Assembly (NCBI RefSeq): GCF_003428645.1
Contig: NZ_QVQH01000005.1
Location: 62,001 to 126,000, forward strand
Direction: 5' to 3'
Source of the DNA: Geodermatophilus marinus
GTDB taxonomy: Bacteria; Actinomycetota; Actinomycetes; Mycobacteriales; Geodermatophilaceae
DNA length: 64,000 nucleotides
In this document: positions 23,717-50,034 of the stretch, one piece after another
How positions within the stretch are numbered: the first letter of the stretch is position 1
Layout of the letters: each line of letters starts with the position of its first letter
Notes under the pieces: model-generated
The model's input: the letters and a program-made list of their open reading frames with translations, nothing else
The model's database searches: none
What the model was told of the DNA's origin: nothing
Position numbers and translations under genes: made by a program

Positions 23717-23765
23717 GTCGCCTCCCCTTGGCCGCCGGTGCGGGCGGCCGTGTCGCGGGTGACCT

Positions 23766-23781
23766 CGTGATCGAGATCACA
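23766..23781. promoter_or_regulatory. CRP-like operator upstream of phaC
   Basis: CGTGATCGAGATCACA fits the CRP-family site TGTGA-N6-TCACA with one change. It lies 50 bases upstream of the phaC start and about 139 bases from the divergent synthase-like gene, so it could act on either. The match is direct; the factor is inferred. Confidence 0.5.
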
Positions 23782-23919
23782 CGGTAGTGGCACGGCGCCG
23801 GCCGCGCTCCCGGCGCGGGGGCCAGCGTGCCGAACCGACCCCGCGACACGCCCGCGGGCCTACAGTCGTGTGCGGTCTCACACGACGGGGTGGCGGGACC
23901 GCGGGACGGGAGCAGGCGC

Positions 23920-25161
23920 ATGACCGAGACGCGCGCGGGGGCCGCGGACCCGCCCGCCGAGCCCGAGGCGGGGTTCTTCCCGACGGCCGAGGCGCCCGAC
24001 CCGCCCACCCTGGCCGGTCGCGCGGTGGCCAGCGCCCTCGCCATCGGCCGGGTCGGGCTCTCGGAGGGCTGGCGCTACTGGTCCCGGCTGCCGCGCCGCG
24101 GGTTCCCGCCCCTGACCGTGCTCGCCGACCTCGGCCGGTGGGCCGCGATCGTCCTCGACCGCCGCCCGCCGGTCTGGCACAGCCCGAACGAGGTCGTCTG
24201 GAGCACGCCCATCGCCCGCCTCCGCGACTTCACCGACGGCGCGGGCGACGACGTCGTCCCCACGCTGCTGCTGCCGCCGCAGGCCGGGCACGACTCCTGC
24301 ATCGTCGACTTCAGCCCGCAGCAGAGCCAGGTCCGGGCGGCGCGAGCCGCCGGGCTGACCGCGCTGTGGTCCCTGGACTGGATCGGCGCCACGTACGAGA
24401 CCCGCGACGCAGGCATCGAGGACCACGTCGCCGTCGTCGACCGGGCCGTGGAGACGCTGGGCGGCCGGGTCAACCTGGTCGGTGACTGCCAGGGCGGCTG
24501 GCTGTCGGCCATCTACGCCGCGCTCCACCCGGCGAAAGTGCACACGCTGACCCTGGCCGGGGCGCCGATCGACACGGTCATCGGCGCCCCGCAGGTCGGG
24601 GACTGGATCGGCGTGCTCGAGGCCGGCGACATGGCCTTCTACCGCGCGCTGGTGGCCAGCGGCGGCGGGGTGCTGCCCGGCCGCTACCAGCTCGGCGGGT
24701 TCATCGCGCTCAAGCCGGAGGCCGAGGTGGAGCGCCAGCTGCAGCTGCTCACCCACCTCGACGACCCCGACCACGTGGCCCGCTACCGCGAGTTCGAGGA
24801 CTGGTTCAAGCACACCCAGGACGTCGCCGGCGCGTTCTACCTCTGGATCGTCCAGCACCTCTTCCGCGACAACGAGCTGGTGCGCGGCGAGCTCGTCGTG
24901 GGCGGGCAGCGGGTCGACCTCGCCCGGATCACCTGCCCGCTGCACCTGCTCGGCGGCGCCACCGACCACATCACCCCGCCGGCCCAGGTCTTCGCCGCCG
25001 CCGCCCACGTCGGGACGCCGGTCGCGGACATCCGCGCCGCGACCACCGCGGGCGGGCACCTCGGGCTGTTCATGGGCACCGAGGCGCTGCGCGACCACTG
25101 GCCGGTCATCTTCGCCGACGTCGCGCGGCGCAGCCGCCGCGACGTCGGGATCGCCTCCTAG
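23920..25161 (+). CDS. PHA synthase-like alpha/beta hydrolase with Cys nucleophile
   Basis: A 413-residue protein related to the catalytic domain of PHA synthases. The nucleophile elbow reads LVGDCQGGWLSAI with Cys190 where typical hydrolases have Ser, the acid region is LGGATDHITPPAQ, and the His is in AGGHLGLFMG. A short N-terminal part (about 35-80) partly resembles the synthase N-domain but is shorter than in PhaC. It could be a second synthase, an inactive partner, or a depolymerase-like enzyme; the Cys and the acid and His regions argue it is active. ATG at 23920 after GGGAGCAGG. It is divergent from phaC across a 203-base regulatory region. Confidence 0.75.
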   Translation: MTETRAGAADPPAEPEAGFFPTAEAPDPPTLAGRAVASALAIGRVGLSEGWRYWSRLPRRGFPPLTVLADLGRWAAIVLDRRPPVWHSPNEVVWSTPIARLRDFTDGAGDDVVPTLLLPPQAGHDSCIVDFSPQQSQVRAARAAGLTALWSLDWIGATYETRDAGIEDHVAVVDRAVETLGGRVNLVGDCQGGWLSAIYAALHPAKVHTLTLAGAPIDTVIGAPQVGDWIGVLEAGDMAFYRALVASGGGVLPGRYQLGGFIALKPEAEVERQLQLLTHLDDPDHVARYREFEDWFKHTQDVAGAFYLWIVQHLFRDNELVRGELVVGGQRVDLARITCPLHLLGGATDHITPPAQVFAAAAHVGTPVADIRAATTAGGHLGLFMGTEALRDHWPVIFADVARRSRRDVGIAS

Positions 25162-26427: not shown

Positions 26428-27840
26428 TCACCGGCCGGTGAGCAGGTCCGCGACGTCGGTGATCCGGCTGGGCCGGCGCAGCCCGGCCGCCTCCCGCCGG
26501 TCGGCCGCCCGGTAGAGGGCGTACATCGACCGGACGCCGAGCCAGCGCAGCGGCTCGGGCTCCCACCGCCGGACCGGGCGGCCCGCCCAGGGCAGTGACG
26601 CCGCCTCGGTGTCCCGGCCGAGCACGAGGTCGGCGAGGGTGCGCGCGGCCAGGTACGCGGTGGTCAGCCCGCTGCCGACGTACCCGCCGGCCCAGCCCAG
26701 CCCGGTCCGCCGGTCCAGGGTCACGCTGGCGCACCAGTCGCGGGGCACGCCGAGGACCCCGCACCAGGCGTGCGCCAGCGGGACGTCGAGGGTGGCGGGG
26801 AACTGGCTGTGCAGGACGGCGGTGAGGGCCTCGACCGTCCGGCGCTGGGTCACGCCATCGGTGTCGGTGCGCGAGCCGAACCGGTAGGGGACGCCGCGGC
26901 CGCCGATCGCGATGCGCCCGTCGGCGGTCCGCTGCGCGTAGCTGTAGGCGTTCGCGCCGTCCCCGACCAGCTCCGCACCGGCCCAGCCGATCTCCGCCCA
27001 GGCCGACGCCGGGAGCGGCTCGGTGACCACCATCGAGCTGTTCATCGGCAGCCACGCCCTCCGCTGCCCCGGCAGCGCGGCGGTCCAGCCCTCCAGGCAG
27101 CGCAGCACGACCTCGGCGCGGACCGTCCCGTGCCGGGTGACCGCGCGGCCGGGGGAGACCGCGGTGACCTCGGTGCCCTCGTGCACGGTGACCCCGCGCC
27201 GGCGCACCGCCCCGGCGAGCCCGCGGACCAGCGCCGCCGGCTGCACGCGGGCACCGTGCGGGCTGTACACCCCACCCAGCGCACCCTCCACGCGCACCCG
27301 GTCGCGGACCTCGCCGCGGGTCAGCCACCGGGCGTGGTCGGCGCCGATGCCCCAGGCGCGGTGGTGGTCGAGCCCCGCCCGCAGGCGGGCCCGCTGGGGT
27401 TCGGACCGGGCGACGAGCAGGACGCCGTCCTTGGCGACGTCGGCGTCGATGCCCTCGCGCCGGCAGACGTCGATGACCTCGTCGACCGCCCGCTCCATCG
27501 CCCGGACCAGGCGTCGCACGCCGTCCCGGCCGCCGGTCGCGGCGTAGCGGCCGAGGTCCCCGGACAGCTCGGCGGACAGCCAGCCGCCGTTGCGGCCGGA
27601 GGCGCCGTAGCCGGCGAACTCCTTCTCCAGCACGACGACCCGCAGGTCCGGCCGGGCCCCGGCGAGGTGGTAGGCGGTCCACAGACCGGTGAGGCCCCCG
27701 CCGACGACGCAGACGTCGGCGGTCCGGTCGCCGGGCAGCGCGGGGCCGCGCTCCGGGACGCCGATCTGCCGGTACCAGAACGACACCCCGCCGGTGACGG
27801 TGCCGGCCCGCTCCCGGGTCCGGTACGCGCGCGCGCCCAC
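26428..27840 (-). CDS. FAD-dependent amine/amino-acid oxidoreductase (DAO superfamily)
   Basis: A 470-residue flavoenzyme. The dinucleotide motif VVGGGLTGLWTAYHLA is near residues 47-62, then RNGGWLSAEL (the gamma-glutamylputrescine oxidase/PuuB-like signature), and a C-terminal FAD segment GYVGSGLTTAYLAART. It would oxidise a primary or secondary amine or an amino acid with O2. The GTG at 27840 lies 10 bases after the amidase stop codon; GTG at 27786 (18 residues shorter) is an alternative start. It is likely co-transcribed with the amidase upstream, suggesting a pathway in which an amide is cut and the amine oxidised. Confidence 0.85.
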   Translation of the reverse strand: MGARAYRTRERAGTVTGGVSFWYRQIGVPERGPALPGDRTADVCVVGGGLTGLWTAYHLAGARPDLRVVVLEKEFAGYGASGRNGGWLSAELSGDLGRYAATGGRDGVRRLVRAMERAVDEVIDVCRREGIDADVAKDGVLLVARSEPQRARLRAGLDHHRAWGIGADHARWLTRGEVRDRVRVEGALGGVYSPHGARVQPAALVRGLAGAVRRRGVTVHEGTEVTAVSPGRAVTRHGTVRAEVVLRCLEGWTAALPGQRRAWLPMNSSMVVTEPLPASAWAEIGWAGAELVGDGANAYSYAQRTADGRIAIGGRGVPYRFGSRTDTDGVTQRRTVEALTAVLHSQFPATLDVPLAHAWCGVLGVPRDWCASVTLDRRTGLGWAGGYVGSGLTTAYLAARTLADLVLGRDTEAASLPWAGRPVRRWEPEPLRWLGVRSMYALYRAADRREAAGLRRPSRITDVADLLTGR

Positions 27841-27850
27841 GGGAGCCCGG

Positions 27851-29245
27851 TCAGCCGGCCGCGAGGAGCGCCTCGACCCGGCCGGCGACCGCGAGGAGGG
27901 CGGCGTCGTCGCCCGGCAGCGCCTCCAGCGAGACGCCGATCGGCAGGCCGGCCGCCGTGGCGCCGGCGGGCAGCGAGATCGCGGGCATGCCGGCGGTCGA
28001 CCCGGGGCCGGTGTTGCGGATGGTGGTGAGGAAGACCGGTACCTGCCGGCCGTTGAGCTCGGTGGTCTCGTCGTCCCCGACAGGTGGGGCGGGCAGCGGC
28101 ACCGTCGGGTAGACGAGCGCGTCGAGCCGCTCGCCGCCGGCCGGGCGCAGCGCCGCGCCGTAGGCCTGCCGCAGCCGCGCGCGGACCTCCAGGTTCTGCC
28201 GGTACAGCTCCTCGGTGACGCTGCCGGAGGCGGCCATCTCGAGCGCGGCGCGGACGTCGGGGGAGGCCACCTGCTCGATCACCTCGGCCAGGGTCAGCCG
28301 GTTCTCCGGTCCGGGCAGCGTGGCCAGGTAGGCGGGCAGCTCGCGGGCGATCTCGAAGAACACGATGGGGAAGCCGCACTCGGCGTCGAGCGCGTGCGCG
28401 TCGGCGACGTCCACCTCGACCAGCCGCACCCCGGCGTCGGCGAGCCGGTCGAGCGCGCGCCGGGCGGTGTCGGCCACCTCCGGGTGGAGGTCGTCGTAGA
28501 AGCCGGTGCGGGGGACGCCCAGCCGCAGCGGGCGGTCCGGCGCCGCGCCGGCGGGCTCCCCGGTGACCAGCCCGTCGACCAGGACGGCGTCGGCGACGCG
28601 CGTGGCCAGGACGCCGGCGGTGTCGCGGGTGCTGGAGATCGGCACGGTGCGCCCGGTGCCCCACCGGCCGACCGTCGGCCGCCAGCCGACCAGCCCGCAG
28701 TGCGCGGCCGGCACCCGCACCGACCCGCCGGTGTCGGTGCCGAGCGCGACCGGGACGACGCCCGTGGCGACCGCGACCGCCGAGCCGCCCGAGGAGCCGC
28801 CGGCCGACCGGCCCGGGTCGGCGGGGTTGCGGACCGGGCCGAAGGCGGCGTTGTTGCTGGTGATGCCGAGCGCGAGCTCGTGCAGGTTCGTCTTCCCGAC
28901 CACCGCCGCACCGGCCGCCCGGAGCCGGCCGACCGCGTGCTGGTCGTGCGCCGGGTGGGAGTGCCGCAGCGCCGGCGTGCCGCCGGTGGTGGGCAGGTCC
29001 TGGGTGTCGAGGTTGTCCTTGACCGCGACCGGGACGCCGGCCAGCGGCCCGTCCCCGCCCGCGGCGCTGTCGGCGATCGTGGTGAAGGCGCCGAGGTGGG
29101 CGACCCCCCGGGCCCGCTCGAGGCTCGCGGCCACGACGTCCGCGGCGGAGGACGCGGCGATCCGCCGCCGGACCTCGTCGATCCCCGCCCGGTCGCCGGG
29201 CCCCACCCGGTCGCCGGGCCCCGCCGTGCCGTCGGGCCCCGCCAT
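27851..29245 (-). CDS. amidase (amidase-signature family)
   Basis: A 464-residue amide hydrolase. The Ser-cisSer-Lys triad is visible: Lys in VAVKDNLDTQ (about residue 74), Ser in the signature GRSAGGSSGGSAVAVATG (about 145-162), and Ser in TDTGGSVRVPAAHCG (about 170-185). The C-terminal end has GMPAISLPAG and GLPIGVSLEA, typical of the family. Start at ATG 29245 after GAGAGGGG; the longer reading adds 15 unconvincing residues. The natural amide is unknown (indoleacetamide-, mandelamide- or urea-type are possible). Operon with the DAO enzyme. Confidence 0.9.
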   Translation of the reverse strand: MAGPDGTAGPGDRVGPGDRAGIDEVRRRIAASSAADVVAASLERARGVAHLGAFTTIADSAAGGDGPLAGVPVAVKDNLDTQDLPTTGGTPALRHSHPAHDQHAVGRLRAAGAAVVGKTNLHELALGITSNNAAFGPVRNPADPGRSAGGSSGGSAVAVATGVVPVALGTDTGGSVRVPAAHCGLVGWRPTVGRWGTGRTVPISSTRDTAGVLATRVADAVLVDGLVTGEPAGAAPDRPLRLGVPRTGFYDDLHPEVADTARRALDRLADAGVRLVEVDVADAHALDAECGFPIVFFEIARELPAYLATLPGPENRLTLAEVIEQVASPDVRAALEMAASGSVTEELYRQNLEVRARLRQAYGAALRPAGGERLDALVYPTVPLPAPPVGDDETTELNGRQVPVFLTTIRNTGPGSTAGMPAISLPAGATAAGLPIGVSLEALPGDDAALLAVAGRVEALLAAG

Positions 29246-29280
29246 GCCGTCCCCTCTCGCCGCCCCGGAGACTGCCACAC

Positions 29281-29955
29281 GTGCCGCCACCGGACCGAGC
29301 AGTCGCCGTCCACACCGGCGTCCCGTACGCGCCCGCCGAGCCGGCGGGCGGGTGGACGGCGGCCATGGCCGGTGTCACCGGGGACGTGGCCGCGCTGGAG
29401 GGGGACGTCGGCGGCAACGCCGGGTACCCGAGCGCGGTCCAGGCCGTCGTGGACCTCTACGGACCCACCGACTTCCTGCAGATGGACGAGCACGTGCTCC
29501 CGGGGGCCTGCCAGGACTTCGACGCGGTGTTCGGCCTGTCGGGCTGCCACGGCGACCCGGCCTCGCCCGAGTCGCTGCTGCTCGGCCGGCCGATCGGGAC
29601 CGGCCCCGAGGCCGTTCGGGCCGCCAACCCGGTCACCCACGTCGGCCCGGGGGCCCCGCCGTTCCTCATCGCGCACGGCCGCGAGGACGCCGTGGTCCCG
29701 CGCCACCGGAGCGAGCTGCTGTTCGCGGCGCTGGCCGGGGCCGGCGTGCCGGCCACCTTCTCCTCGCTACCGGGCACGGGGCACAGCCGGACGATCGTCG
29801 ACCCGGGCACCCCCACCGCCGAGGTCCGCTCGACCCTCCCCGCCGTGCCGTGGCCGGTGGGCACCCCACCGACCCTCGCGACCGTCCAGTCCTCCCTGCG
29901 CGTCGCGCTGGACCGACCGCACGGCTCCGGGGGGCTGCGGCCGGGGCGCGGCTGA
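29281..29955 (+). pseudogene. remnant of an alpha/beta hydrolase (esterase) lacking its N-terminus and nucleophile
   Basis: An open frame of 224 residues whose body matches the C-terminal two thirds of actinobacterial esterases: MAGVTGDVAALEGDVGGNAG, VVDLYGPTDFL, the acid IAHGREDAVVP and the His in GTGHSRTI. The first 30 residues do not match. Where the family has GDSAGGHLAAM, this has AEPAGGWTAAM, so the nucleophile Ser is absent, and the N-terminal oxyanion half is missing. Nothing in the upstream 36 bases or the neighbouring frames restores it. It reads as a 5'-deleted, decaying gene next to the amidase promoter region, unless translated for another purpose. Confidence 0.65.
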
Positions 29956-30232: not shown

Positions 30233-30664
30233 TCAGCGGCCCTGGCGCTCCCGGTACCGGGCGGCCCGCCGGGCGGCGGCGGCCCGGCGGCGTGCCGAGT
30301 CCTCCGCCTCGCGGGTGCGGGCCGCCTCCTCGCGCACGGCGGTCGCGGTGCCGGCCGGGTAGCCGGCCTTGACCACCCGGTTCTCCGTCGCCTCCGGCAT
30401 GTAGGCCAGCGAGAAGATCAGCCCGAGGGCGATGCCGCCCAGCGCCGCCATCCCGCGGATCCAGAACGGGCCGGGGACGACGAGCAGGACCAGGGCGATC
30501 GGGACGGCCATCTGCACGACGGCCCGGCCGACGTGCCGCAGCGCCCAGGTCCGGGTCGTGGTGTCGTGCAGCACCCAGGTGCGGTGGCGCTCGGGGAGGC
30601 CGCCGCCCAGGGCGTACCAGAGCCAGCGCAGCACCCCCGGCCGCTGCAGGGCCGGCTGCGTCAC
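30233..30664 (-). CDS. DUF5313-like membrane protein
   Basis: A 143-residue protein with two hydrophobic helices (about residues 47-67 and 70-92, MAVPIALVLLVVP and MAALGGIALGLIFSLAYMP). Before them is PGVLRWLWYALGGGLPERH, and a long charged Arg/Ala-rich tail follows, as in actinobacterial DUF5313 proteins of unknown function. The GTG overlaps the stop of the OhrR-like gene (GTGA), so the two are translated together. Confidence 0.8.
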   Translation of the reverse strand: MTQPALQRPGVLRWLWYALGGGLPERHRTWVLHDTTTRTWALRHVGRAVVQMAVPIALVLLVVPGPFWIRGMAALGGIALGLIFSLAYMPEATENRVVKAGYPAGTATAVREEAARTREAEDSARRRAAAARRAARYRERQGR

Positions 30665-31176
30665 GGGGCCCCCTCGGGCTCGTCGTCCCCCGGCGATCCG
30701 TCCGGCCCCCGGCGTTCCAGGGCCCCCTGCGCCGCGGTGATGACCCGGGTGAGCGCCCCGTGCAGGGACACCAGGTCCTCCACCGGCAGGCCGAGGTGCG
30801 CCACGATCCCCGCCGGGATCTCCTCCGCCCGGGCGCGCAGCGCCCGCCCCTCCGGGGTGAGCGCGATGGCGAGGGCGCGCTCGTCGCGGGGGTCGCGGTC
30901 CCGGCGGACGAGGCCCGCGGCCTCCAGGCGCTTGACCAGCGGGGAGAGGGTCCCCGGGTCCAGCTGGAGCAGCCGGCTGAGGTCCCGGATGGCCAGCGGC
31001 CCGTGCTGCCAGAGCGCGAGCATCACGAGGTACTGCGGGTGGGTGAGGCCCATCGGCTCGAGCCAGGGGCGGTACACGGCCACGACGGTGCGGGCGGCCA
31101 CGGAGAGCGCGTAGCAGACCTGCTGGTCGAGGGCGAGCGGGTCCGGTGGTGCCGCCGGGTCGGTCGTCGTCCGCAC
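30661..31176 (-). CDS. MarR-family regulator, OhrR-like
   Basis: A 171-residue winged-helix regulator close to OhrR, the organic-hydroperoxide sensor. It has Cys21 in LDQQVCYALSVAAR at the position of the reactive Cys of OhrR, the recognition region DLSRLLQLDPGTLSPLVKRL, and the wing RDPRDERALAIALT. The single reactive Cys fits the one-Cys type. The usual partner ohr is not next to it; the downstream DUF5313 gene overlaps by 4 bases. GTG at 31176 is chosen since the longer reading crosses the promoter region, which contains the 8-bp palindrome ACACGTGT and CCAATGGTTGG. Confidence 0.85.
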   Translation of the reverse strand: MRTTTDPAAPPDPLALDQQVCYALSVAARTVVAVYRPWLEPMGLTHPQYLVMLALWQHGPLAIRDLSRLLQLDPGTLSPLVKRLEAAGLVRRDRDPRDERALAIALTPEGRALRARAEEIPAGIVAHLGLPVEDLVSLHGALTRVITAAQGALERRGPDGSPGDDEPEGAP

Positions 31177-31300
31177 GCCACCGACCGTACACGTGTGGTA
31201 CCCCAATGGTTGGCCCCCCAAGGATTCCTCGGCCTGCGCCCCGCCGCCGACCGCCCTACGGTGGCGGCACCGCCCGGTGACCGTCCGAGCAGGAGGGGTC

Positions 31301-31666
31301 ATGGCCGTCTTCCGGATCCTCGAGGCGAGGGCGCGCCCCGGCGCGCTCGACCGCCTCGCCGAGCTCCTCGTCCGCCAGAACGAGCAGGTGGTCTCCTCGG
31401 CCCCCGGTGCGCTGTTCGCGCAGGCGCTGCGCAGCGGCGACCAGGTGCTCGCCGTCTCGAGCTGGCGCAGCGCCGACGACGTCGCGCGCTACCTGGACCA
31501 GGAGGTGACCCAGCGCTTCTACCGGGCCCTGACCGACCTGCTCATGGGGACGCCGAGCGTCCGCACGTACGAGGTGCTGGGGTCCGGCGACGACGGCGCC
31601 GCGGCGTGGGCGGACGGCGGTGCGCCCGCGGACGGCGGTGCGCCCGCGGGCGGTGGTGCGCGGTGA
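31301..31666 (+). CDS. antibiotic-biosynthesis-monooxygenase-fold (ABM) protein, first gene of an unknown operon
   Basis: A 121-residue protein with a ferredoxin-like ABM fold over residues 1-90 (FRILEARARPGALDRLAELL, then VLAVSSWRSADDVARYL), followed by a tail with three short Ala/Asp/Gly repeats (DGGAPADGGAPAGGGA). ABM-fold proteins are cofactor-free oxygenases, heme-degrading enzymes or simple binding proteins. ATG after AGGAGGGG. Its TGA overlaps the GTG of the next gene, so it opens a translationally coupled operon of four genes ending at 34743. What it acts on is unknown. Confidence 0.75.
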   Translation: MAVFRILEARARPGALDRLAELLVRQNEQVVSSAPGALFAQALRSGDQVLAVSSWRSADDVARYLDQEVTQRFYRALTDLLMGTPSVRTYEVLGSGDDGAAAWADGGAPADGGAPAGGGAR

Positions 31667-32337
31667 GCTGGTACTACCCGAAGGGCTGGACCGACCAGGA
31701 GGACGGCGTCGAGCAGGTCCTCATCCACTACGCCTGCACGCCGCCGGGCCAGTACCCCGACTGGTCCTGGGGGCACGGGTCCCGCGTCCTGGAGGACCGC
31801 GGCGGGTACCCGCGCACCCGGCTGAAGGTGCTGCGGATGCCCCGCGAGGTCTGGGACATGGAGCACGGGTGGTCGACCCCGGAGTACCGGTTCCACTACT
31901 ACTTCGAGGTCTTCCAGGACGGCGCCCGCTGGACGACGGACCTGTTCAGCGAGGACATCGTCTACCGCGACCTCGAGTACGTCGACGACCACGGCTGGGC
32001 GACCAACATCTGCATCTACTGGTCGGTGGGGGACTGGGGCGCCCCCGTCTACAGCCCGATGGAGGACCCCCGCTTCCCGGCGGACTCCGAGTTCCGGTCG
32101 ACGCGGTACTACTCCTACTGGGACAAGGACCGCTTCCACCACGACAAGTTCCACATGCTCCAGGCGATGGAGCGGCCGCACCGCTGGCAGGCCCGCATGT
32201 ACGGGCCGCGCGGGGCCACGCTCGTCCAGCAGTACCACATCGGCCGCATGCACCCGCCGGAGGAGAAGGACGAGTTCTGGCTGGGGCCGGACGGCCGGTC
32301 CGCGCCCGGCGGCAACTGGTGGGTCCAGCACCTGTGA
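31663..32337 (+). CDS. Trp/Tyr-rich beta-sandwich-like protein, 224 residues (operon gene 2)
   Basis: No family recognised with certainty. The protein is extraordinarily rich in Trp, Tyr and His. Segments such as WYYPKGWTDQEDGVEQVLIH, RFHYYFEVFQDGARW and GWATNICIYWSVGDW look like beta-strands of the CBM25/CBM53 starch-binding fold (in that family YY..gW, IHY, and W near the end). The C-terminal half (about residues 135-224) is also aromatic-rich and ends GGNWWVQHL. No signal peptide or catalytic motif is visible. It overlaps the ABM gene by 4 bases and shares its general pattern with the next gene, so the two are diverged paralogues. Confidence 0.7.
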   Translation: MSWYYPKGWTDQEDGVEQVLIHYACTPPGQYPDWSWGHGSRVLEDRGGYPRTRLKVLRMPREVWDMEHGWSTPEYRFHYYFEVFQDGARWTTDLFSEDIVYRDLEYVDDHGWATNICIYWSVGDWGAPVYSPMEDPRFPADSEFRSTRYYSYWDKDRFHHDKFHMLQAMERPHRWQARMYGPRGATLVQQYHIGRMHPPEEKDEFWLGPDGRSAPGGNWWVQHL

Positions 32338-32350
32338 GGACGGGAGACCC

Positions 32351-33028
32351 GTGAGCGAACTGACCGCCGGCGCCGCCGGGGCCCGGCACGCCGGGGCCGA
32401 CCACCTGTTCGGCCTGCGCAAGACGTGGTGGGACCCCGCGCCGGGCATCGAGATGGTGCAGATCCACTTCGCCTGGACGCCCCCGGACGGGGAACCGGAC
32501 TGGGAGTCGGCCGAGTCCCGGGTGATGACGCCGGGCGAGCTCTCCCGGCTGCGGACCGCGGTCCTCGAGGTGCCCCGGGAGCTGGACGGGAGCCGGGAGT
32601 ACCTGCTGCACCACTTCTTCTACGTGGTCCGCGGCACCGAGTGGGTCAGCTCGCCGGTGTTCACCGAGGAGGTCGTCACCCGCGAGGTGACCTGGACCGA
32701 CGAGACCGGTGACTGGACGCACGTGGGCATCGGCTGGGGGGTGTCCCCGGGCGCCCCCGGGCTCGCCGCACCGAACTACACCGCCGCCGCGATGGACGGC
32801 CTGACCTTCGAGGACGCCGGCGCCGGCGCGCCTCCGGAGCCCTCCCCCATCCACGAGTTCGTGCGGGCGCAGCCGCTGCCGCACGTCTTCCGGGGCCTGG
32901 TGTGGGGGCCGCGGGGGGCCGACGTCCGCTACGTCGTCCACCTGGTCCGCGCGGGGAGCCCGCGGCCCGAGGAGGACGCGGAGGCCTGGGAGGACAACGG
33001 CGGGGCCGGGTGGACGATCACCCTGTGA
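32351..33028 (+). CDS. Trp/Tyr-rich beta-sandwich-like protein, 225 residues (operon gene 3)
   Basis: A diverged paralogue of the preceding gene: IEMVQIHFAWTPPDGEPDW matches VEQVLIHYACTPPGQYPDW there, then LEVPRELDG / LRMPREVWD, HHFFYVVRGTEWVSSPVF / HYYFEVFQDGARWTTDLF and REVTW / RDLEY. The C-terminal half is different and ends AWEDNGGAGWTITL, which resembles the WDNNGG motif of CBM25/53-type domains. GTG at 32351 is 13 bases after the previous stop, and its own stop overlaps the start of the amidohydrolase fusion by 4 bases. Function unknown; a sugar-ligand role is inference. Confidence 0.7.
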   Translation: MSELTAGAAGARHAGADHLFGLRKTWWDPAPGIEMVQIHFAWTPPDGEPDWESAESRVMTPGELSRLRTAVLEVPRELDGSREYLLHHFFYVVRGTEWVSSPVFTEEVVTREVTWTDETGDWTHVGIGWGVSPGAPGLAAPNYTAAAMDGLTFEDAGAGAPPEPSPIHEFVRAQPLPHVFRGLVWGPRGADVRYVVHLVRAGSPRPEEDAEAWEDNGGAGWTITL

Positions 33029-34743
33029 GCACGGTGCTGCCCCTGAGCTGGGCCTCGCCGGTGGAGGAGCGGGCCCCGACGGGGTGGGTGCGTTACCGAG
33101 GGAGTCTCGCCGGCGCCGACCGGCCGCTGCACCTGCACCTCGGTCTCGACGGCGCGGGCCCGCCGTTCACCGCCGTCCCCCTGCAGCGCGCCGACGACGG
33201 CAGCTGGGTGGGCGAGGTGCCGGACACCGGCGGCCACGTCCTGCTCGACGGCGCCGTCGCCACCGCCGACGGCGAGTGGGACAACAACGGCGGGGCCGAC
33301 CACCGGCTCTGGATCGGCCTGGACCCGGTCGACTCCCACGTGCACGTGCGGACGCCCGGCCTGGACGAGATGGGGTTCGAGAGCCTGCGGGTCGCGCTGG
33401 CCTCCGGGGGGATGACGCACGGGCTGGTGTCCTGGCAGGACAACGCCTTCGTGGACGGGGTGGCCGCGGGGGTGCCCTGGCTGACCCGGCTGGTCTGGGT
33501 GAGCCCGGGCGGGCCGGACCCCGACGAGGTCCGCCGGCGGCTGGCCGACGGCGCGGTCGGGCTGAAGCTGCACCCCTCCTACGACGAGTACCCGGCCGAC
33601 ACCCCGGCGCTGGACCCGTTCCTCCGGGTCGCGGCCGAGACGGGCGTGCCGGTCACCGTGCACACCGCGCCGGGGCCCTCGGACCCCGACCTGATCCGCC
33701 GGCTGGCCGAGCGGTTCCCCACCGTGCCCGTCGTCCTGTACCACACCTTCCTCGGCCTCCCGGAGGGCCGGCGGCGGGCGGCCCGGCACGCCCGGGAGCT
33801 GCCGAACCTGCACCTGGAGACGTCGTGGTGCCGCTCGGAGGAGGTCCGGCGGCTGATCGACGAGGTGGGGCCCGACCGGGTGCTGTTCGGGTCCGATGCG
33901 GCGGTCGACGGGCCCGCCCACTTCGTCCGGACGCCGCCGAACATCGAGCTGGTCGAGAACTACAACACCAGCCTCCTGCGCCTGGCCCGCCTGCTGGAGC
34001 CGGACGTCTTGCGAGCCTTCCTCGAGAACAACACGCGGCGGTTGTTCGGGCTCCCCGCTGCCGTTCCCGAGCCGGCCGCGGTCGGGGAACCGGTCGTGGT
34101 CGCCGAGCCGGCCGGCGCTGCCGAGCCGGTGCCCGCGGGACCGGGGCGTGCCCGGGTCGCCCTCGCGGCCCGGTCCCCGGACGCCGCGACTCTCTTCGCC
34201 GATGCGCTGGCGCAGGCCGAGCGCGTCGTCGCCGACGTGACCGCCGACCACCTGCCGCTGCCCACCCCGTGCGCGGACTGGGACGTGCGGGCGCTGCTCG
34301 GGCACCTGCTGGCCGCGGTCCGGCGGGCCGAGCGGGTGGCGCGGGGACGCCCGGCGTCGTCCGTTCCGGCGGTCGCCGTCGTCGACCCGCGCGGGCGCTG
34401 GGCGTCCACCTTCGCGGCGTCCGCGCGGCGGGCGCGGGAGGCGTGGGCGGCGGACGGCGCGCCGGTCGACGTCCCGGCCCCCTGGGGGGCGGTGCCGGCG
34501 CCGGCCGGCCTGTCGGGGTTCGTGCTGGAGGTCGTCGCGCACACGCACGACCTGGCCGTCGCGACGTCGTCCGGCCGGCCGCTCGACGAGGGGCTCGCGA
34601 CCGCTGCGCTCGGCTTCGCCGAGCGGCTGGTTCCGGCCGAGCTCCGCGGGGAGTCGGCGGCCTTCGGTGAGCCGGTGCCCGTCCCGGCGGACGCCGGTCC
34701 CTACGACCGCCTCGCGGCCTTCCTGGGACGGGTGCCGAGCTGA
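33025..34743 (+). CDS. fusion: carbohydrate-binding-like domain, amidohydrolase, mycothiol-type DinB domain (operon gene 4)
   Basis: A 572-residue three-part protein. Residues 1-95: beta-domain with DDGSWVGEV and EWDNNGGADHRLW, as in CBM25/53. Residues about 98-355: amidohydrolase_2 TIM-barrel with metal motif DSHVHV, KLHPSYDEYP, VTVHTAPG, YHTFLG and the catalytic Asp in LFGSDAAVDG. A Pro/Ala/Glu-rich linker (about 360-385) follows. Residues about 390-572: DinB/TIGR03086-type domain of mycothiol-dependent maleylpyruvate isomerase relatives (LPLPTPCADWDVRALLGHLL, EVVAHTHDLAVAT, with the His and Asp metal-site positions). GTG overlaps the previous stop. Such a fusion is unusual; substrate unknown. 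Confidence 0.8.
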   Translation: MSTVLPLSWASPVEERAPTGWVRYRGSLAGADRPLHLHLGLDGAGPPFTAVPLQRADDGSWVGEVPDTGGHVLLDGAVATADGEWDNNGGADHRLWIGLDPVDSHVHVRTPGLDEMGFESLRVALASGGMTHGLVSWQDNAFVDGVAAGVPWLTRLVWVSPGGPDPDEVRRRLADGAVGLKLHPSYDEYPADTPALDPFLRVAAETGVPVTVHTAPGPSDPDLIRRLAERFPTVPVVLYHTFLGLPEGRRRAARHARELPNLHLETSWCRSEEVRRLIDEVGPDRVLFGSDAAVDGPAHFVRTPPNIELVENYNTSLLRLARLLEPDVLRAFLENNTRRLFGLPAAVPEPAAVGEPVVVAEPAGAAEPVPAGPGRARVALAARSPDAATLFADALAQAERVVADVTADHLPLPTPCADWDVRALLGHLLAAVRRAERVARGRPASSVPAVAVVDPRGRWASTFAASARRAREAWAADGAPVDVPAPWGAVPAPAGLSGFVLEVVAHTHDLAVATSSGRPLDEGLATAALGFAERLVPAELRGESAAFGEPVPVPADAGPYDRLAAFLGRVPS

Positions 34744-34809
34744 GGTCCCGCCGGCTCCCTGGTCCCTGGGGTGCTGCCGGCTGACCTGCGGATTCTTTGT
34801 CCACAGCGG

Positions 34810-34842
34810 TTGCCTGTGGCTAGTTCTCGAACGTATGATCGA
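34810..34842 (+). promoter_or_regulatory. leaderless promoter with overlapping LexA-like box
   Basis: TTGCCT (34810-34815), 18 bases, TATGAT (34834-34839); the ATG at 34846 lies 7 bases after the -10, so the message would be leaderless. TCGAACGTATGATCGA (34827-34842) differs from the SOS box TCGAAC-N4-GTTCGA at one position and covers the -10. An inverted repeat CCACAG/CTGTGG (34801-34819) lies over the -35. Confidence 0.6.
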
Positions 34843-34845
34843 TGC

Positions 34846-37065
34846 ATGCCGCCCGTCGCCGCTCCGCCCGCCGATCCGGCGGTGGTGGCGCCGGCGGCGG
34901 GCTGGGCGTCCGGGCCGCTGGGGGTGGTGCAGGCCGCGGAGCGGGAGATGGCCCGCCTCGTGGCGGTGCAGGCGACCGCGGTGGCGGAGTTCGCCGACGC
35001 CCGGCCTGCCTCGGTCGACCGGCCGCAGGGTCAGCGGGGGGCGATGAGCGCGGAGCGGTGGGCGGCGCGCCCGGAGCTGTTGCGGGAGGTCAGTGAGTGG
35101 GCCGCCCCGGAGCTGGCGGTGGCGCTGTCGTGCAGCGAGCGGTCGGCTGAGCTGCTGCTCGAGCGGTCGTTGACGCTGGTGCTCCGGCTGCCGGGAGTGC
35201 ACGCGGCGCTGCAGGAGGGCCGGTTGCACCGCGGGCAGCTGTGGGTGTTCCTGGACCTGGTGGCACCGCTGGCCGAGGACGCGGTGCGCGCCGCGGTGGA
35301 GGCGCAGCTGCTGGGCTGGGTGGCCGCCCGTACCGCCGGCGGGCGGGTGACCACCCCGGCGCAGCTGCGGGACAAGGCCCGGCGGGTGCTGGCCGGCCGC
35401 GGGCTGCGGCAGGCCGCGCAGGACCTGGCGGCGGCGATCCGGGCCCGCGGGGTGGCGGTGGTGGCGGAGCGCACGGCGGGGATGGCGTCGCTGTCGGCGC
35501 TGCTGACCCTGCCCGAGGCCCGGGCGGTGCACGCGGCGCTGGGCGCCTGCGTCGACGCGCTGCCCGCCGACCCGGGTGACGCCCGGTCCCGGGGCGAGCG
35601 GATGGCCGACTGCCTGGTGGACCTGGTGCTGCGCCCGGGTGAGGGGGCGTGGCCGCCGGTGCAGGTGGCGCTGACGCTGGTGGCCTCGCTGGAGACCGTG
35701 CTGGGCGGGGAGGCCCCCGGCGAGCTGGACGGGCAGGTGATCTCGGCGGAGATGGTTCGCCAGCTGCTGCGGCTGCTCACCGGCACCCCCGCCGGCACCG
35801 GCGACGACCCCACCGACGACCCCACCGACGACCCCGACGACCCCGGCGACACCGGCACCGGCGCCGCGGGCGGGGCCGGGCCCGCGGGCGGGGCCGGGGC
35901 CGGGGGCGATGCGGGGTGGCTGGACTGGGCCGGTGACGACGACCCGGCCCTGGCCCCGGACCTGACCCCGGCCCAGCGGCGCGCGCTGGCCGCCGCGGAG
36001 GCCCGCTGGTGGGCCGACCGGGACCGCGAGGTCTTCGGCGAGGGCGAGGTCTTCGGCGATGACCCGATGCCCGGATTCGGCGCGGGGATGGTGGACGACC
36101 TCCTCGCGCCGAGTTCGCCGGGCCCGCCGGGGCCGGAGGAGTGGCCGCCGGGCCCACCTGCACCGGAGGCGCCCCCGCCGGGCCCCGCCGCGCCCGGCGA
36201 CCGGACCGGTGACACCGCGCCCGGTGACACCGCGCCCGGTGACACCGCGCCCGGTGACACCGCGCCCGGTGACACCGCGCCCGGTGACACCGCGCCCGGT
36301 GACGCGGCGGTGGGGTCGGGTTGGTGGGCGGCGGCCGACGCCGCGGTCACCGACGCCGCCTCCGCCGCCCACCAGGCGCTGCTGGCCCTGGCCCGGGCCC
36401 GCCGGCTGGTGCGCACCGCCGAGCACGCCGCCGCCGCCGACGAGCACACCTGGCGCACCCGCCCGGCCGCCGCACTGGACGCCGCGGCCACCAGCCTGGC
36501 CGCGCTGGCCGCCGCCGGCGCCGCCGACCGGGCCGCCCTCGGCGCGCTGCTGGCCGCCACCGCCGGCGGCGGGCTGGCCGACCGGCCCCGCCTGGCCCTG
36601 GTCGACGCCCTCACCGGCGCGCTGATCGCCCTCACCGACCTGCCCGCGCTGCGCCGCACCGGCGCCTGCGCCCGCCCCGGCTGCCGGCGCGCCCCGGCCG
36701 GCGGCTGCCCGCACGACCTCACCGGCCGGCCCGGGCTGGGGGCGCCCGGCTCGACCGCCGGCTACCGGCCCGGCGCCGCGCTGGACCGGTTCCTGCGCGC
36801 CCGCGACCGCCGCTGCCGCTTTCCCGGCTGCCGCCGCCGGGTGCCCGCCGGCGGCGAGCTGGACCACCGCATCCGCTATCCCGACGGGCCCACCGCCGCG
36901 GCCAACATGGCCGGCTTCTGCACCGGCCACCACCGCGGCAAGCACCAGGCCCCCGGCTGGACCCACACCCCCAGCGGCGATGCTGCGCTCACCGTCACCA
37001 CCCCCGCCGGCCTGACCGCCACCACCGACCCGCCCCCCTACGGCGACCAGGACTGCCCGTACTGA
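34846..37065 (+). CDS. DUF222/13E12-family HNH endonuclease-like protein (copy 2)
   Basis: A 739-residue member of the same family as the gene at 11595-13103 but longer and distinct. DUF222 helices cover about residues 20-310 (REMARLVAVQATAVAEFADA). A Gly/Pro/Asp-rich insert with a short tandem repeat PGDTA spans about 310-490. The HNH domain is at about 640-715 (RDRRCRFPGCRRRVPAGG, ELDHRIRYPDGPT, GFCTGHHRGKHQAPGW). Catalytic His and zinc Cys are kept. The ATG at 34846 directly follows a -10-type TATGAT, consistent with leaderless translation; the LexA-like box over this promoter suggests DNA-damage control, as reported for some 13E12 genes of mycobacteria. Confidence 0.9.
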   Translation: MPPVAAPPADPAVVAPAAGWASGPLGVVQAAEREMARLVAVQATAVAEFADARPASVDRPQGQRGAMSAERWAARPELLREVSEWAAPELAVALSCSERSAELLLERSLTLVLRLPGVHAALQEGRLHRGQLWVFLDLVAPLAEDAVRAAVEAQLLGWVAARTAGGRVTTPAQLRDKARRVLAGRGLRQAAQDLAAAIRARGVAVVAERTAGMASLSALLTLPEARAVHAALGACVDALPADPGDARSRGERMADCLVDLVLRPGEGAWPPVQVALTLVASLETVLGGEAPGELDGQVISAEMVRQLLRLLTGTPAGTGDDPTDDPTDDPDDPGDTGTGAAGGAGPAGGAGAGGDAGWLDWAGDDDPALAPDLTPAQRRALAAAEARWWADRDREVFGEGEVFGDDPMPGFGAGMVDDLLAPSSPGPPGPEEWPPGPPAPEAPPPGPAAPGDRTGDTAPGDTAPGDTAPGDTAPGDTAPGDTAPGDAAVGSGWWAAADAAVTDAASAAHQALLALARARRLVRTAEHAAAADEHTWRTRPAAALDAAATSLAALAAAGAADRAALGALLAATAGGGLADRPRLALVDALTGALIALTDLPALRRTGACARPGCRRAPAGGCPHDLTGRPGLGAPGSTAGYRPGAALDRFLRARDRRCRFPGCRRRVPAGGELDHRIRYPDGPTAAANMAGFCTGHHRGKHQAPGWTHTPSGDAALTVTTPAGLTATTDPPPYGDQDCPY
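36208..36297 (+). repeat. six tandem copies of a 15-bp unit inside the second 13E12 gene
   Basis: Six perfect head-to-tail copies of GGTGACACCGCGCCC followed by a decayed seventh. They keep the reading frame and encode repeated GDTAP. The unit number probably varies between strains by slippage. It separates the DUF222 half from the HNH half, so it is a flexible linker. Confidence 0.95.
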
Positions 37066-39324: not shown

Positions 39325-40818
39325 TCAGGCGTTCTGGGGGAAGCCCAGGTTCAACCCGCCGTGGCTGGGGTCCAGCCAGCGGGAGGTGATGACCTTGCCG
39401 CGGGTGAAGAAGTGCACGCCCTCGGCGCCGTGCGCGTGGGAGTCGCCGAACAGGCTGTTCTTCCACCCGCCGAACGAGTAGTAGGCCATGGGGACCGGGA
39501 TCGGCACGTTGATCCCGATCATCCCGACCTCCACCTCGTGGGCGAACCGGCGCGCGGCGCCGCCGTCGTTGGTGAAGATCGCCGTCCCGTTGCCGTACTC
39601 GTTGCCGTTGACCAGCGCGAGGGCCTCCTCGTAGGTGTCGGCGCGCAGCACCGACAGCACCGGGCCGAAGATCTCGTCGGTGTAGACGCTCATGTGCGGC
39701 TGCACGTGGTCCAGCAGCGTCGGGCCCAGCCAGAAGCCGTCCTCGCCGCCGTCGGGGGTCACCTGCCGGCCGTCGACGACGACCTTGGCGCCGTCGGCCT
39801 CGCCGGCGTCGACGTAGGAGGCGACCCGGTCCCGGTGCGTGCGGCTGATCAGCGGGCCCATGTCGCAGCCCTTGCGCCCGTCGCCGGTGCGCAGCGTGTG
39901 GGCGCGCTCGGAGATCCGGGCGACGAGGTCGTCGCCGATCCCCCCGACGGCCACGACCGCGCTGATCGCCATGCAGCGCTCGCCGGCCGAGCCGAAGCCG
40001 GAGTTGATGGCCTGGTCGGCGGCCAGGTCCAGGTCGGCGTCCGGCAGCACGATCATGTGGTTCTTCGCCCCGCCGAGGGCCTGCACCCGCTTGCCGTGCC
40101 GGGTGCCGGTCTCGTACACGTAGCGCGCGATGGCGGTCGAGCCGACGAAGGAGACCGACTGGATGTCGGGGTGCTCCAGCAGCCGGTCGACGGCGACCTT
40201 GTCGCCCTGGGCGACGTTGAACACGCCGTCGGGCAGCCCGGCCTCCTTCCACAGCTCGGCGATCCAGAGCGCGGCCGACGGGTCCTGCTCGCTGGGCTTG
40301 AGGACGACGGTGTTGCCCGTGGCGATGGCGATGGGGAAGAACCACATCGGCACCATGGCCGGGAAGTTGAACGGGCTGATGATCGCGACCGGGCCGAGCG
40401 GCTGGCGCACCGAGTGCACGTCGACGCTGGTCGAGGCGTTCTCGGTGAACCCGCCGCGCACCAGCGAGGGCACGCCGCAGGCGTACTCGACGACCTCCTG
40501 GCCGCGGGAGACCTCGCCGAGGGCGTCGTCGAGGACCTTGCCGTGCTCGGCGGTGATGATCGCGGCCAGCTCGGGCTTGCGGGCGTTGAGCAGCTCCCGG
40601 AAGCGGAACAGCACGGCGGTGCGCTTGGTCAGCGACGTGTCGCGCCAGCCCGGGAAGGCCGCCGACGCGGCGGCGACCGCGGCGTCGACCTCCTCCACCG
40701 AGGCCAGCGCGACCTCGCCGGTGACCTCGCCGGTCGCGGAGTCGGTGACGGGGGTGGTGCGGCCGCTGGTGCCCTCGCGGCGGGCACCGTCGATCCAGTG
40801 CGGGATGGACGTGGGCAT
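39325..40818 (-). CDS. mmsA: methylmalonate-semialdehyde dehydrogenase (acylating), IolA type
   Basis: A 497-residue CoA-acylating aldehyde dehydrogenase that converts malonic semialdehyde to acetyl-CoA and CO2, the last step of inositol catabolism, and methylmalonic semialdehyde to propionyl-CoA. Signs: the FPAMVPMWFFPIAIATGNTV region typical of MmsA, the NAD site FVGSTAIARYVYETG, and catalytic Cys282 in GSAGERCMAIS. ATG at 40818. It is the last gene of the operon, 33 bases after iolH; a strong hairpin follows. Confidence 0.93.
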   Translation of the reverse strand: MPTSIPHWIDGARREGTSGRTTPVTDSATGEVTGEVALASVEEVDAAVAAASAAFPGWRDTSLTKRTAVLFRFRELLNARKPELAAIITAEHGKVLDDALGEVSRGQEVVEYACGVPSLVRGGFTENASTSVDVHSVRQPLGPVAIISPFNFPAMVPMWFFPIAIATGNTVVLKPSEQDPSAALWIAELWKEAGLPDGVFNVAQGDKVAVDRLLEHPDIQSVSFVGSTAIARYVYETGTRHGKRVQALGGAKNHMIVLPDADLDLAADQAINSGFGSAGERCMAISAVVAVGGIGDDLVARISERAHTLRTGDGRKGCDMGPLISRTHRDRVASYVDAGEADGAKVVVDGRQVTPDGGEDGFWLGPTLLDHVQPHMSVYTDEIFGPVLSVLRADTYEEALALVNGNEYGNGTAIFTNDGGAARRFAHEVEVGMIGINVPIPVPMAYYSFGGWKNSLFGDSHAHGAEGVHFFTRGKVITSRWLDPSHGGLNLGFPQNA

Positions 40819-40851
40819 GGGTGCCTCTCTCGGGGTCAGGGGGTCGGAGGT

Positions 40852-41727
40852 TCAGGGGGTGGGGGCGTTCGGGAAGTGCTCGGCGACCAGCGCCCGGATG
40901 GCCTCGAGCATCCGGATGCCGGACTCGCGGGCCTGGTCGTCCCAGCCGAAGACGCAGGTGGTGAGGACGCCGTCGAAGCCGACGCCGGCCAGCGCCGCGA
41001 AGGCCTCGTCGAAGTCCACGTCGCCGCGGCCGATCTCCATGTGCTGGTGGACGCGCGTCGTGTTGCCCGGCGGGTTGGTGATGTAGCGCAACCCGTCGGA
41101 GGCCCGGTGGTCCATCGAGTCGGCGACGTGCACGTGCGTCAGCAGCTCGCCGGCGCGGGCGATGATCCCCGGCGCGTCGTCGCCCTGGTGGAACGTGTGG
41201 GGCAGGCAGTACAGGAAGGACGCGCACGGCGAGTCGATGCCGCGGACCATGTCGACCGCAGGGGACCCGAGCTCGATGAAGTCGTCCGGGTGCGGCTCGA
41301 GGGCGAGCCTGATGCCCTCGCGCTCGAACACCGGCAGCAGCTCCTCCATCGAGCGCCAGAACATCGCCTCGGCGAGCTCGGGCGCCTCCGGGCGGCCGTT
41401 GAACTCGCTGTTCATCGTGTCCACGCCCAGCTCGGCGCAGATCTCGATGGCCCGCCGCCAGTAGCGGACGGCGGCCTGCCGCTCGACCTCGTCCGGCCCC
41501 GACCAGCGCATCACCGGCAGCAGCGAGGTCACGCCGACCCCGGCGTCGGCCAGCCTCGACCGGAAGGCGCGCACCGTGGCCAGGTCGACCCGGGGGTGCT
41601 TGAAGAACGGGATGAAGTCCTCGCGCGGCGAGAGCTCGATCCACTCGTAGCCCATCGAGGCCACCACGTCGGGCAGCTCCAGCAGCGGCGTGGTCCGCAG
41701 CATCTGCGGGTCCAGGGCGATCCTCAT
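40852..41727 (-). CDS. iolH: sugar phosphate isomerase/epimerase, IolH-like
   Basis: A 291-residue TIM-barrel of the xylose-isomerase-like family. Metal-site segments are visible: [10 protein letters not shown] (Glu), [26 protein letters not shown] and [14 protein letters not shown]. Proteins of this branch sit in inositol operons as IolH, whose reaction is not well established. It overlaps iolG by 4 bases (ATGA), so it is expressed with it. An epimerase for inositol stereoisomers is a plausible role. Confidence 0.82.
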
Positions 41728-42809
41728 GACCGGCCTTCTCGCGGTGCCATCCGGACCTCCGTGCGCCGGCCGCTGCGCAGGGCCTCGACGCCGGCCTCGG
41801 CGACGGCCGCGGCCGCGTACCCGTCCCAGACGCCCGGGCCGTCGGTGCCGCCGCGGCGGGCCGCGTCGACCCAGCGCTGCACCTGGACGTCGTAGGCGCG
41901 CCCGAACCGCACGCGGAAGTCGGGGGCGATCGTCGTGCTGCGCGCGGCCCCGCGGGGCCCCGCACCCACCCGCACCAGGCCCTGGTCGAGGCCGATGACC
42001 GCGCTGCCGTCCTCGCCGACCACCTCGGTGCGCACCTCGTAGCCGATGCCGGTGCTCACGAAGGCCTCGACGTCCACCAGCCGGCCGCCGGTGGTCTCGA
42101 GGAGCACCAGCAGCGGGTCGGACTGCCCGGGCAGCGCGTGCCGGGTGGCCCGCGGCCGGAGCACGGTCACCGCGGTGATCTCCTCGTCGAGGAGGAACCG
42201 GGTGACGTCGACCTCGTGCACGACCGAGTCGGTGATCGTCAGCTCGCTGCCGAAGTGCGGTGGGACGGCGGCGTTGCGGTGAGCGCAGTGCAGCAGCAGC
42301 GGCTCGCCGATCCCACCGGAGGCGATCAGTGCCCGCAGCTGGGCGTACTCCGGGTCGAAGCGGCGCATGAAGCCGACCTGGACCAGGCGTCGCCCGGTCC
42401 GCGCGGCGTACGCGTCCTCGGCCCGGACGACGGCCAGCGAGCTGGCCGCGTCCAGGGTCAGCGGCTTCTCGCAGAGCACCGGCAGGCCTCGGTCGATGCA
42501 GGCGAGCAGCTGCTCCTCGTGGAACTGCCCGGGCGTGGCGATCACGACGGCGTCGACCTCGGGGTCGGCGATGGCGGCGAGCGGGTCGGTGACCACCCGG
42601 GCCCCGGGCACCGTGCCGGCGACCTGCTCGGCGCGCTCGGCGGACGCGTCGCTGACGGCGACCACCCGGGCGCCGGAGATCCGCGCGTGCAGGCGGGCGA
42701 CGTGGTCGGCGCCCATCAGGCCGACGCCCAGCACGGCCACGCGCAGCTCGGTGGCGGGGACCTCGGTGCGGGCCGGCAGGACGCCCGCGACGGTCTCGGC
42801 GGTGGTCAT
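41724..42809 (-). CDS. iolG: inositol 2-dehydrogenase family protein (Gfo/Idh/MocA)
   Basis: A 361-residue NAD-dependent dehydrogenase that would oxidise myo-inositol to scyllo-inosose, the first pathway step. Signs: the Rossmann start [20 protein letters not shown] (about residues 24-43), the conserved CEKPLT (about 111-116), and the active-site region [14 protein letters not shown], in which Asp and His are catalytic in this family. The ATG overlaps the iolE stop by 4 bases, and its own stop overlaps the iolH start. Other Gfo/Idh members of the cluster are not seen, so this is probably the only inositol dehydrogenase in the window. Confidence 0.92.
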
Positions 42810-49641: not shown

Positions 49642-50034
49642 GTGCCCCTGGTCCGCATCGACGTCGTCGAGGGACGACGCACCCCCGAGCAGCTGCGGCT
49701 CCTGGCCGACACCGTCCAGGAGGTGCTGCTCGACGTGTTCGCCGCACCGCCCCGCGACCGCTACCAGGTCCTCACCGAGCACCGGCCCGGTCACCTCATC
49801 TGCGAGGACACCGGGCTGGGCATCGAGCGCACCGACGACCTCGTGGTGCTCCAGGTCGTCCAGCAGGGGCGGTCGGAGGAGCAGAAGCGGGCGCTCTACG
49901 CCCGGCTGTGCGAGCGCCTGGGCGAGGTGACCGGGTTGGCGCCCGGCGACCTCGTCGTCTCCGTCACCGCCAACACCCGGGCCGACTGGTCCTTCGGGCT
50001 CGGCCGCGCCCAGTTCCTCGACGGCGACCTCTGA
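49642..50034 (+). CDS. tautomerase-family protein
   Basis: A 130-residue protein of the 4-oxalocrotonate tautomerase superfamily. After removal of the initiator it starts with Pro, the catalytic base of the family (PLVRIDVVEGRRTPEQL). It is longer than classic 60-residue tautomerases and is thus of the fused-unit Tautomerase_2 type, with strands DLVVLQVVQQGR and DLVVSVTANTRADWSFG. GTG follows GAGGGAG. Its promoter carries the motif shared with the iolC/GntR region, so it may act on an enolisable inositol intermediate; that is inference. Confidence 0.82.
   Translation: MPLVRIDVVEGRRTPEQLRLLADTVQEVLLDVFAAPPRDRYQVLTEHRPGHLICEDTGLGIERTDDLVVLQVVQQGRSEEQKRALYARLCERLGEVTGLAPGDLVVSVTANTRADWSFGLGRAQFLDGDL

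Follow-up and report, generated by a model that had tools for sequence, protein, structure and literature searches.

A conserved and undescribed four-gene cassette in Geodermatophilus marinus that looks like an accessory module of phenylacetate catabolism

What purpose is served by four tightly packed genes of Geodermatophilus marinus that include two paralogues without a known family and a three-domain fusion? The genes lie in a stretch of 64,000 nucleotides (RefSeq assembly GCF_003428645.1, contig NZ_QVQH01000005.1, positions 62,001 to 126,000), hereafter the window, where they occupy positions 31301..34743 of the forward strand and are referred to as A to D. Gene A (31301..31666) encodes a small protein of 121 amino acids with the antibiotic biosynthesis monooxygenase (ABM) fold (PF03992), B (31663..32337) a protein of 224 amino acids predicted to consist of two immunoglobulin (Ig)-like beta-sandwich modules, C (32351..33028) a paralogue of B with 225 amino acids, and D (33025..34743) the fusion. 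A first-pass annotation had proposed that they form one operon and possibly an undescribed pathway of their own. The junctions agree with the first of these proposals: the stop of A and the start of B share a four-base overlap (GTGA), a gap of 13 bases separates B from C, and C and D share a second four-base GTGA overlap. Expression of A-B-C-D as one unit is likely, and their order is conserved in other genera. The cassette as a whole appears to be a conserved accessory module of phenylacetate (paa) catabolism, not described so far and built around an orphan protein family; a tie to that route is very probable.

A scan of the named genomes for B retrieved 13 loci, which belonged to Geodermatophilus tzadiensis, a Blastococcus, two metagenome-assembled genomes (MAGs; one Modestobacter and one Jatrophihabitans), and nine Actinoplanes-type strains of a single family, which we take to be the Micromonosporaceae. 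The order A-B-C-D was found in all 13, including the first two domains of D (D1 and D2, described below), and the overlap of A and B measured four bases in 12 loci and one base in the remaining locus (L025). Because the order is the same in every locus and the ratios of nonsynonymous to synonymous substitution rates (dN/dS) against G. tzadiensis are as low as 0.14, 0.13, 0.28, and 0.33 for A, B, C, and D, respectively, the four-gene set is not a product of chance. Two further carriers were identified in a draw of genomes from the Actinoplanes-type family, one complete (G1052) and one with only paaK, B, and D (G1061). Together with the window, this amounts to 16 cassettes, 15 of which have the full order; C is missing only in G1061, where the cassette is reduced to B and D.

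The occurrence of the cassette was sparse. In the family of the window, B was found in four of 112 genomes, its own included, and wider draws returned it solely from the window's own genome (one of 396 genomes phylum-wide and one of 394 class-wide). A draw from the Actinoplanes-type family gave 11 of 250, which is no fair prevalence as the draw held all nine known carriers. No relatives of B were found in 72,556 plasmid records or among 32 candidate stretches found in viral_contigs, and carriage of the cassette by mobile elements or viruses was rejected on that basis.

The link to phenylacetate emerged from the neighborhoods, where 15 of the 16 cassettes lie beside paa-linked genes in one of four layouts; the genome of the window is the exception. 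When open reading frames (ORFs) in the 6 kb flanks of 14 loci were clustered, one extra family was present in 10 of them, always adjoining the cassette, and this family is PaaK. All other families of flanking ORFs were confined to one or two of the 14 loci. In the Micromonosporaceae, all 11 cassettes are immediately preceded by paaK in the same orientation, at a distance of -1 to 17 bases from A in the nine measured. In the Jatrophihabitans MAG (L019), paaK starts 161 bases after D. In the Modestobacter MAG (L018), D and paaE are convergent with 18 bases between them, and in G. tzadiensis (L017) D is followed by a hotdog-like gene that belongs to the paa cluster there and then by paaE, with paaA, paaK, and paaZ beyond. 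The hotdog-like gene, presumably a thioesterase, had no NCBIfam match. In the Blastococcus genome (L020), the cassette is at the other end of the cluster, with a cytochrome P450 gene just upstream and paaZ about 3 kb away. The first-pass suggestion of a stand-alone pathway is hard to sustain given these neighborhoods and the position of paaK at the head of the operon in the Micromonosporaceae found.

PaaK, PaaA, PaaE, and PaaZ score above curated cutoffs. For example, the two PaaKs scored against TIGR02155 (equivalog cutoff 646.3) reached 714.2 for the cassette PaaK of L021 and 722 for that of the window's genome. PaaA was present in all 14 cassette genomes tested, in one of them as a fragment at a contig end. 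By a rough estimate, the probability that a gene set lands next to a 10 kb cluster of a 5 Mb genome by chance is well below 1% for each genome; these probabilities were not multiplied because the cassette cases are related. Compared with the aerobic paa cluster (PaaK, PaaABCE, PaaG, PaaZ, and PaaR), the cassette adjoins it at either edge in three Geodermatophilaceae and is headed by PaaK in the 11 Micromonosporaceae, while none of A to D was found as a described Paa protein.

In the literature searched, no description of the four-gene set was found in titles or the opening parts of abstracts, which is consistent with the first-pass statement that no characterized pathway of this composition is known. 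A study of phenylacetate pathway distribution (PMC13186573) names an Actinoplanes PaaK, while a term count found no "amidohydrolase" in its main text. Likewise, by term counts, the main text of the review PMC9493321 is without "amidohydrolase", "antibiotic biosynthesis monooxygenase", "carbohydrate", phenylacetamide, and conjugate.

The PaaK sequences carry a separate signal of history. The cassette PaaK of L021 is about 80-85% identical to those of the window's family, in contrast to mostly 66-76% for the other PaaKs of its own family. In a tree of 74 PaaKs, 11 cassette PaaKs and one other grouped with the PaaK of L019 and those of the window's family, with a support of 99 in the Shimodaira-Hasegawa-like approximate likelihood ratio test (SH-aLRT), and this cassette group was apart from 31 native Micromonosporaceae PaaKs. 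The tree was built by a quick method, where several native rows are long-branched and many inner forks are weak; it sampled 30 of 81 matches from the window's family, 29 of 47 others from the family of L021, and three second copies, with the duplicates L095, L103, L114, and L046 dropped. No PaaK was found in the partial Modestobacter MAG. Since the cassette PaaKs group with those of the Geodermatophilaceae, paaK and the cassette probably moved together between these groups. The gene cluster, its conservation, its paa neighborhood, and the PaaK grouping are all established at the sequence level.

The central domain of D (D2, residues 99-350, 33319..34074) is an Amidohydro_2 TIM barrel (PF04909; 103.3 bits against a cutoff of 26.4), a match shared by all 14 D members. 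Positions H105, H107, K181, H213, H240, and D291 are invariant in all 14; we take them to be the metal ligands, aided by alignments with urease and 3cjp. The invariant lysine aligns with the lysine of urease "GLKIH", presumably its metal-site lysine. Structure models were made for B and for residues 1-350 of D and compared with solved structures by VIA-align. The nearest solved folds of D2 include dihydroxybenzoate decarboxylases, ACMSD, LigW, pyrone-dicarboxylate hydrolase, and LigY. Relative to the Amidohydro_2 enzymes of aromatic catabolism (2,3-dihydroxybenzoate decarboxylase, ACMSD, LigW, LigY, and 2-pyrone-4,6-dicarboxylate hydrolase), D forms a separate branch. Matches to D in 24 other genomes span the barrel alone, with the N-terminal domain matched in none, and plasmid relatives of D were at most 30% identical among the 20 matches listed.

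The N-terminal domain (D1, residues 1-98, 33025..33318) resembles the carbohydrate-binding modules (CBMs) CBM53 and CBM25. The copy in the window scored 13.1-15.7 bits against CBM_25, below the cutoff of 27.3, with no CBM53 match listed. Nine of 14 D homologues matched CBM53 at E <= 1, the best at 3.1e-8, and a second profile comparison placed CBM53 in five of 10 rows. D1 was barely covered by the VIA-align comparison; its alignment with the CBM25 structure 2c3v, around a DNN motif, is weak (E 0.35). The residue preceding this motif is W in five and C in nine of 14 sequences, so a starch-binding platform, for which we take the conserved aromatics of CBM53 and CBM25 to be the sugar-binding residues, is not conserved in D1. 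Additionally, D1 differs from starch-binding modules of these families in belonging to a cytoplasmic-looking protein with no glycosidase in the same chain. Signal peptides were not apparent in any cassette protein by eye, with no prediction tool applied.

The C-terminal domain (D3, 34159..34743) is optional. It is of the DinB or mycothiol-dependent isomerase type, scoring 34.4 bits against MDMPI_N (cutoff 24.2), 141.1 against TIGR03086 (cutoff 83), and 70.3 against TIGR03083 (cutoff 50). Profiles and invariant residues thus bear out the earlier description of D as a fusion of a CBM-like domain, a TIM-barrel hydrolase with metal motifs, and DinB. However, a DinB domain is fused to D in only eight of the 16 cassettes, and the proposal of a mycothiol pathway was therefore dropped as the core of the cassette.

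The middle proteins B and C are the orphan part of the set. They were noted as alike from the start, and their paralogy is now supported by 29-34% identity between the window's B and 14 C sequences (alignment A5) and by mutual retrieval of B and C in a profile scan of the named loci. The window's B and C matched no Pfam or NCBIfam family above cutoff. CBM profiles had zero matches from B or from 14 C members, and the 14 C homologues gave only three stray weak profile matches, in one member each, with a best E of 0.018. Against sequences of the PDB, B and C had no significant relative, the sole listed match having an E of 0.12. The model of B consists of two Ig-like beta-sandwich modules similar to binding modules of starch enzymes, rather than a known enzyme family with an assigned function. 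It appears to share its Ig-like sandwich with CBM34 (the N domain of neopullulanase or TVA II) and CBM56, names that we assigned from general knowledge except for CBM56, which is in the title of 5t7a. The identity to these modules is 8-14% across 70-91 residues, and the chain of B is without a catalytic partner. The proposed likeness to CBM25/53 stands for D1, by sequence in its relatives, and in a broader sense for B, by predicted fold, while the end of C and the start of D have only a short motif in common. The C-terminus of C (WEDNGG) and the N-terminus of D (WDNNGG) were considered as one domain type and rejected, with no significant profile match of D1 to C or B.

The rates of change single out B as the most conserved of the four genes. 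Mean pairwise identity was 0.85 for PaaK (13 rows), 0.80 for B, 0.73 for A, and 0.62 for C (14 rows each), 0.75 for D2 (14 rows), and 0.53 for D1 (13 rows, with L024 omitted as it was in alignment A6); alignment A8 excludes L021, L023, L024, and L027, which have insertions in D1. B therefore evolves nearly as slowly as PaaK. The reduction to paaK-B-D in G1061 also suggests that B and D form the working core, to which A and C are not essential. The protein A matched ABM with 29.1 bits, above the gathering cutoff of 23.1, and all 14 A homologues matched ABM at E <= 0.1. Many ABM-fold proteins are not oxygenases.

A scheme consistent with these features would begin with the TIM barrel of D, whose class of decarboxylases, lactonases, and C-C hydrolases suggests the conversion of a carboxylated, lactonized, or conjugated aromatic compound to an arylacetate, either phenylacetate or a near relative. 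PaaK would turn this arylacetate into its coenzyme A (CoA) thioester, which would then follow the usual Paa pathway by way of the epoxidase. B, with C and D1, may act as cytoplasmic Ig-like modules of CBM type that hold the substrate or keep a B-D complex together, whereas A could assist as an oxygenase or a carrier, and DinB would be a dispensable extra. That the cassette feeds an arylacetate to PaaK is a tentative proposal, held at slightly less than even odds. The combined reading, a horizontally moving and arylacetate-feeding accessory module of phenylacetate catabolism with the full form paaK-A-B-C-D, has a probability of roughly 0.5. A more specific version appears doubtful, in which B and C are a new family of cytoplasmic twin Ig-like proteins derived from CBMs, which with the CBM53-amidohydrolase carry sugar-linked arylacetates, bound for example to a glycoside or to mycothiol, to the hydrolase and pass the freed acid on to a dedicated PaaK. 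If true, it would describe an intracellular carbohydrate-module system in the service of aromatic catabolism. The phenylacetate route is a hub for the degradation of many aromatic compounds, and an undescribed four-gene cassette linked to it, in which B is almost as conserved as PaaK, suggests an overlooked entry reaction or accessory function. The cassette would also employ carbohydrate-module folds inside the cell, with no glycosidase involved, and it would give a function to the orphan family of B.

The position beside the paaABCE cluster in three Geodermatophilaceae would also suit a protective function, where the cassette traps or recycles the reactive products of phenylacetyl-CoA epoxidation (the epoxide, the oxepin, or the seven-membered-ring shunt product), in that D would open a ring or lactone, DinB would draw on mycothiol, and A would oxidize a shunt phenol. 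A spontaneous rearrangement to the seven-membered-ring product is stated in PMC13186573, and both the likeness of D2 to ring-product lactonases and C-C hydrolases and the DinB fusions agree with such a role. However, the partner in the Micromonosporaceae is paaK and not paaABCE, half of the cassettes are without DinB, and the CBM-like modules would be left without a task; protection is unlikely. Quite unlikely is a biosynthetic operon, where PaaK gives phenylacetyl-CoA and A to D convert it, or a sugar-linked form, to a small secondary metabolite. While the operon starts with paaK in 11 Micromonosporaceae (three of which thereby have two PaaKs), A belongs to the ABM family, and the distribution is patchy, no common synthase, glycosyltransferase, or exporter accompanies the cassette, since only paaK recurs in more than two of the 14 flanks, and in the two Geodermatophilaceae loci that were read whole the cassette adjoins a degradative cluster. 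The least probable reading is the original one of a stand-alone, carbohydrate-linked, and mycothiol-dependent pathway, under which the paa neighborhood would be incidental. It would account for the CBM-like modules in B and D1 and for the distance between cassette and paa genes in the window's genome, but it is at odds with the recurrent adjacency in four layouts, with a cassette paaK whose history is separate from the family's native paaK, and with the optional DinB.

Several observations weigh against the accessory-module reading. The paa cluster of the window's genome, with PaaA, PaaE, PaaZ, and PaaK above cutoffs (locus L034; G000:C45, about 207-217 kb), is on the same contig but about 110 kb from the cassette, and in all nine Micromonosporaceae tested PaaA is on a contig other than that of the cassette. 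The 16 cassettes are mutually related and are not 16 independent cases. In the window's family, 81 of 112 genomes have a PaaK match compared with four of 112 that have the cassette, and the cassette is therefore accessory and not needed for the core route. G867, G870, and G871 carry a native-type PaaK as well, within about 7 kb of paaA in G867 and G871, so these genomes have the cassette PaaK as an additional and perhaps specialized copy. Conversely, G989 (L152 / L181) has a PaaK that belongs to the cassette clade but is not accompanied by any cassette gene within 18 kb, and a search of its genome with the C profile found no relative of C or B. The structural neighbors of D2 also include the non-aromatic isoorotate decarboxylase and isoaspartyl dipeptidase, and the two at the top are uncharacterized proteins. 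Finally, two PaaR-like palindromes are present in the paaA-paaK gap of the window's genome, which resemble the arms ACCGACC/GGTCGGT of the Burkholderia PaaR operator given in PMC9493321, and the cassette in the window has no convincing copy. The lone match in the window is at 49772 with three mismatches, where 0.42 are expected by chance.

Control of the cassette and the paa cluster by a common PaaR was rejected, as no operator was found at the cassette promoter. By eye, the promoters of Geodermatophilaceae-type cassettes seem to have a short TACSGTA-like element in common. Divergent from the cassette is a MarR/OhrR-type regulator (30661..31302, reverse strand; PF01047, 62 bits), whose coordinates are those of the longest ORF and whose true start, judged by eye, is probably near 31190. 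Its family was absent from the flanks of the other cassettes in the flank-ORF comparison. As to G989, which is one of the Micromonosporaceae, its solitary PaaK is perhaps the remainder of a cassette loss. A P450 gene lies next to paaZ in three Geodermatophilaceae (L034:13046-14371; G862:C5 near 61.2-62.6 kb; G865:C6 near 56.7-58.0 kb), with copies 83-85% identical, and may be a further paa-linked gene; the P450 of the window's genome scored below all listed NCBIfam cutoffs.

Further genes were noted elsewhere in the window. About 2 kb from the cassette, an amidase (27851-29290, reverse strand), with indoleacetamide hydrolase as its top NCBIfam match (474.6 bits, cutoff 532), could release arylacetates; no matching ORF family was found in the 6 kb flanks of the other cassettes. 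The amidase adjoins a FAD-dependent oxidoreductase of the DAO family (26428-27840, reverse strand). Genes resembling a polyhydroxyalkanoate synthase and a polyhydroxybutyrate depolymerase, both below NCBIfam cutoffs, are back to back at 21971-25161. There are two DUF222 genes, one at 34771-37065 on the forward strand, whose translation, judged by eye, contains a tandem GDTAP repeat, and the other at 11595-13103 on the reverse strand. The reverse-strand region at 39325-43792 is likely an inositol or sugar catabolic cluster: it encodes a methylmalonate-semialdehyde dehydrogenase (709.5 bits, cutoff 448.5) and a protein that resembles IolE but scores below its cutoff.

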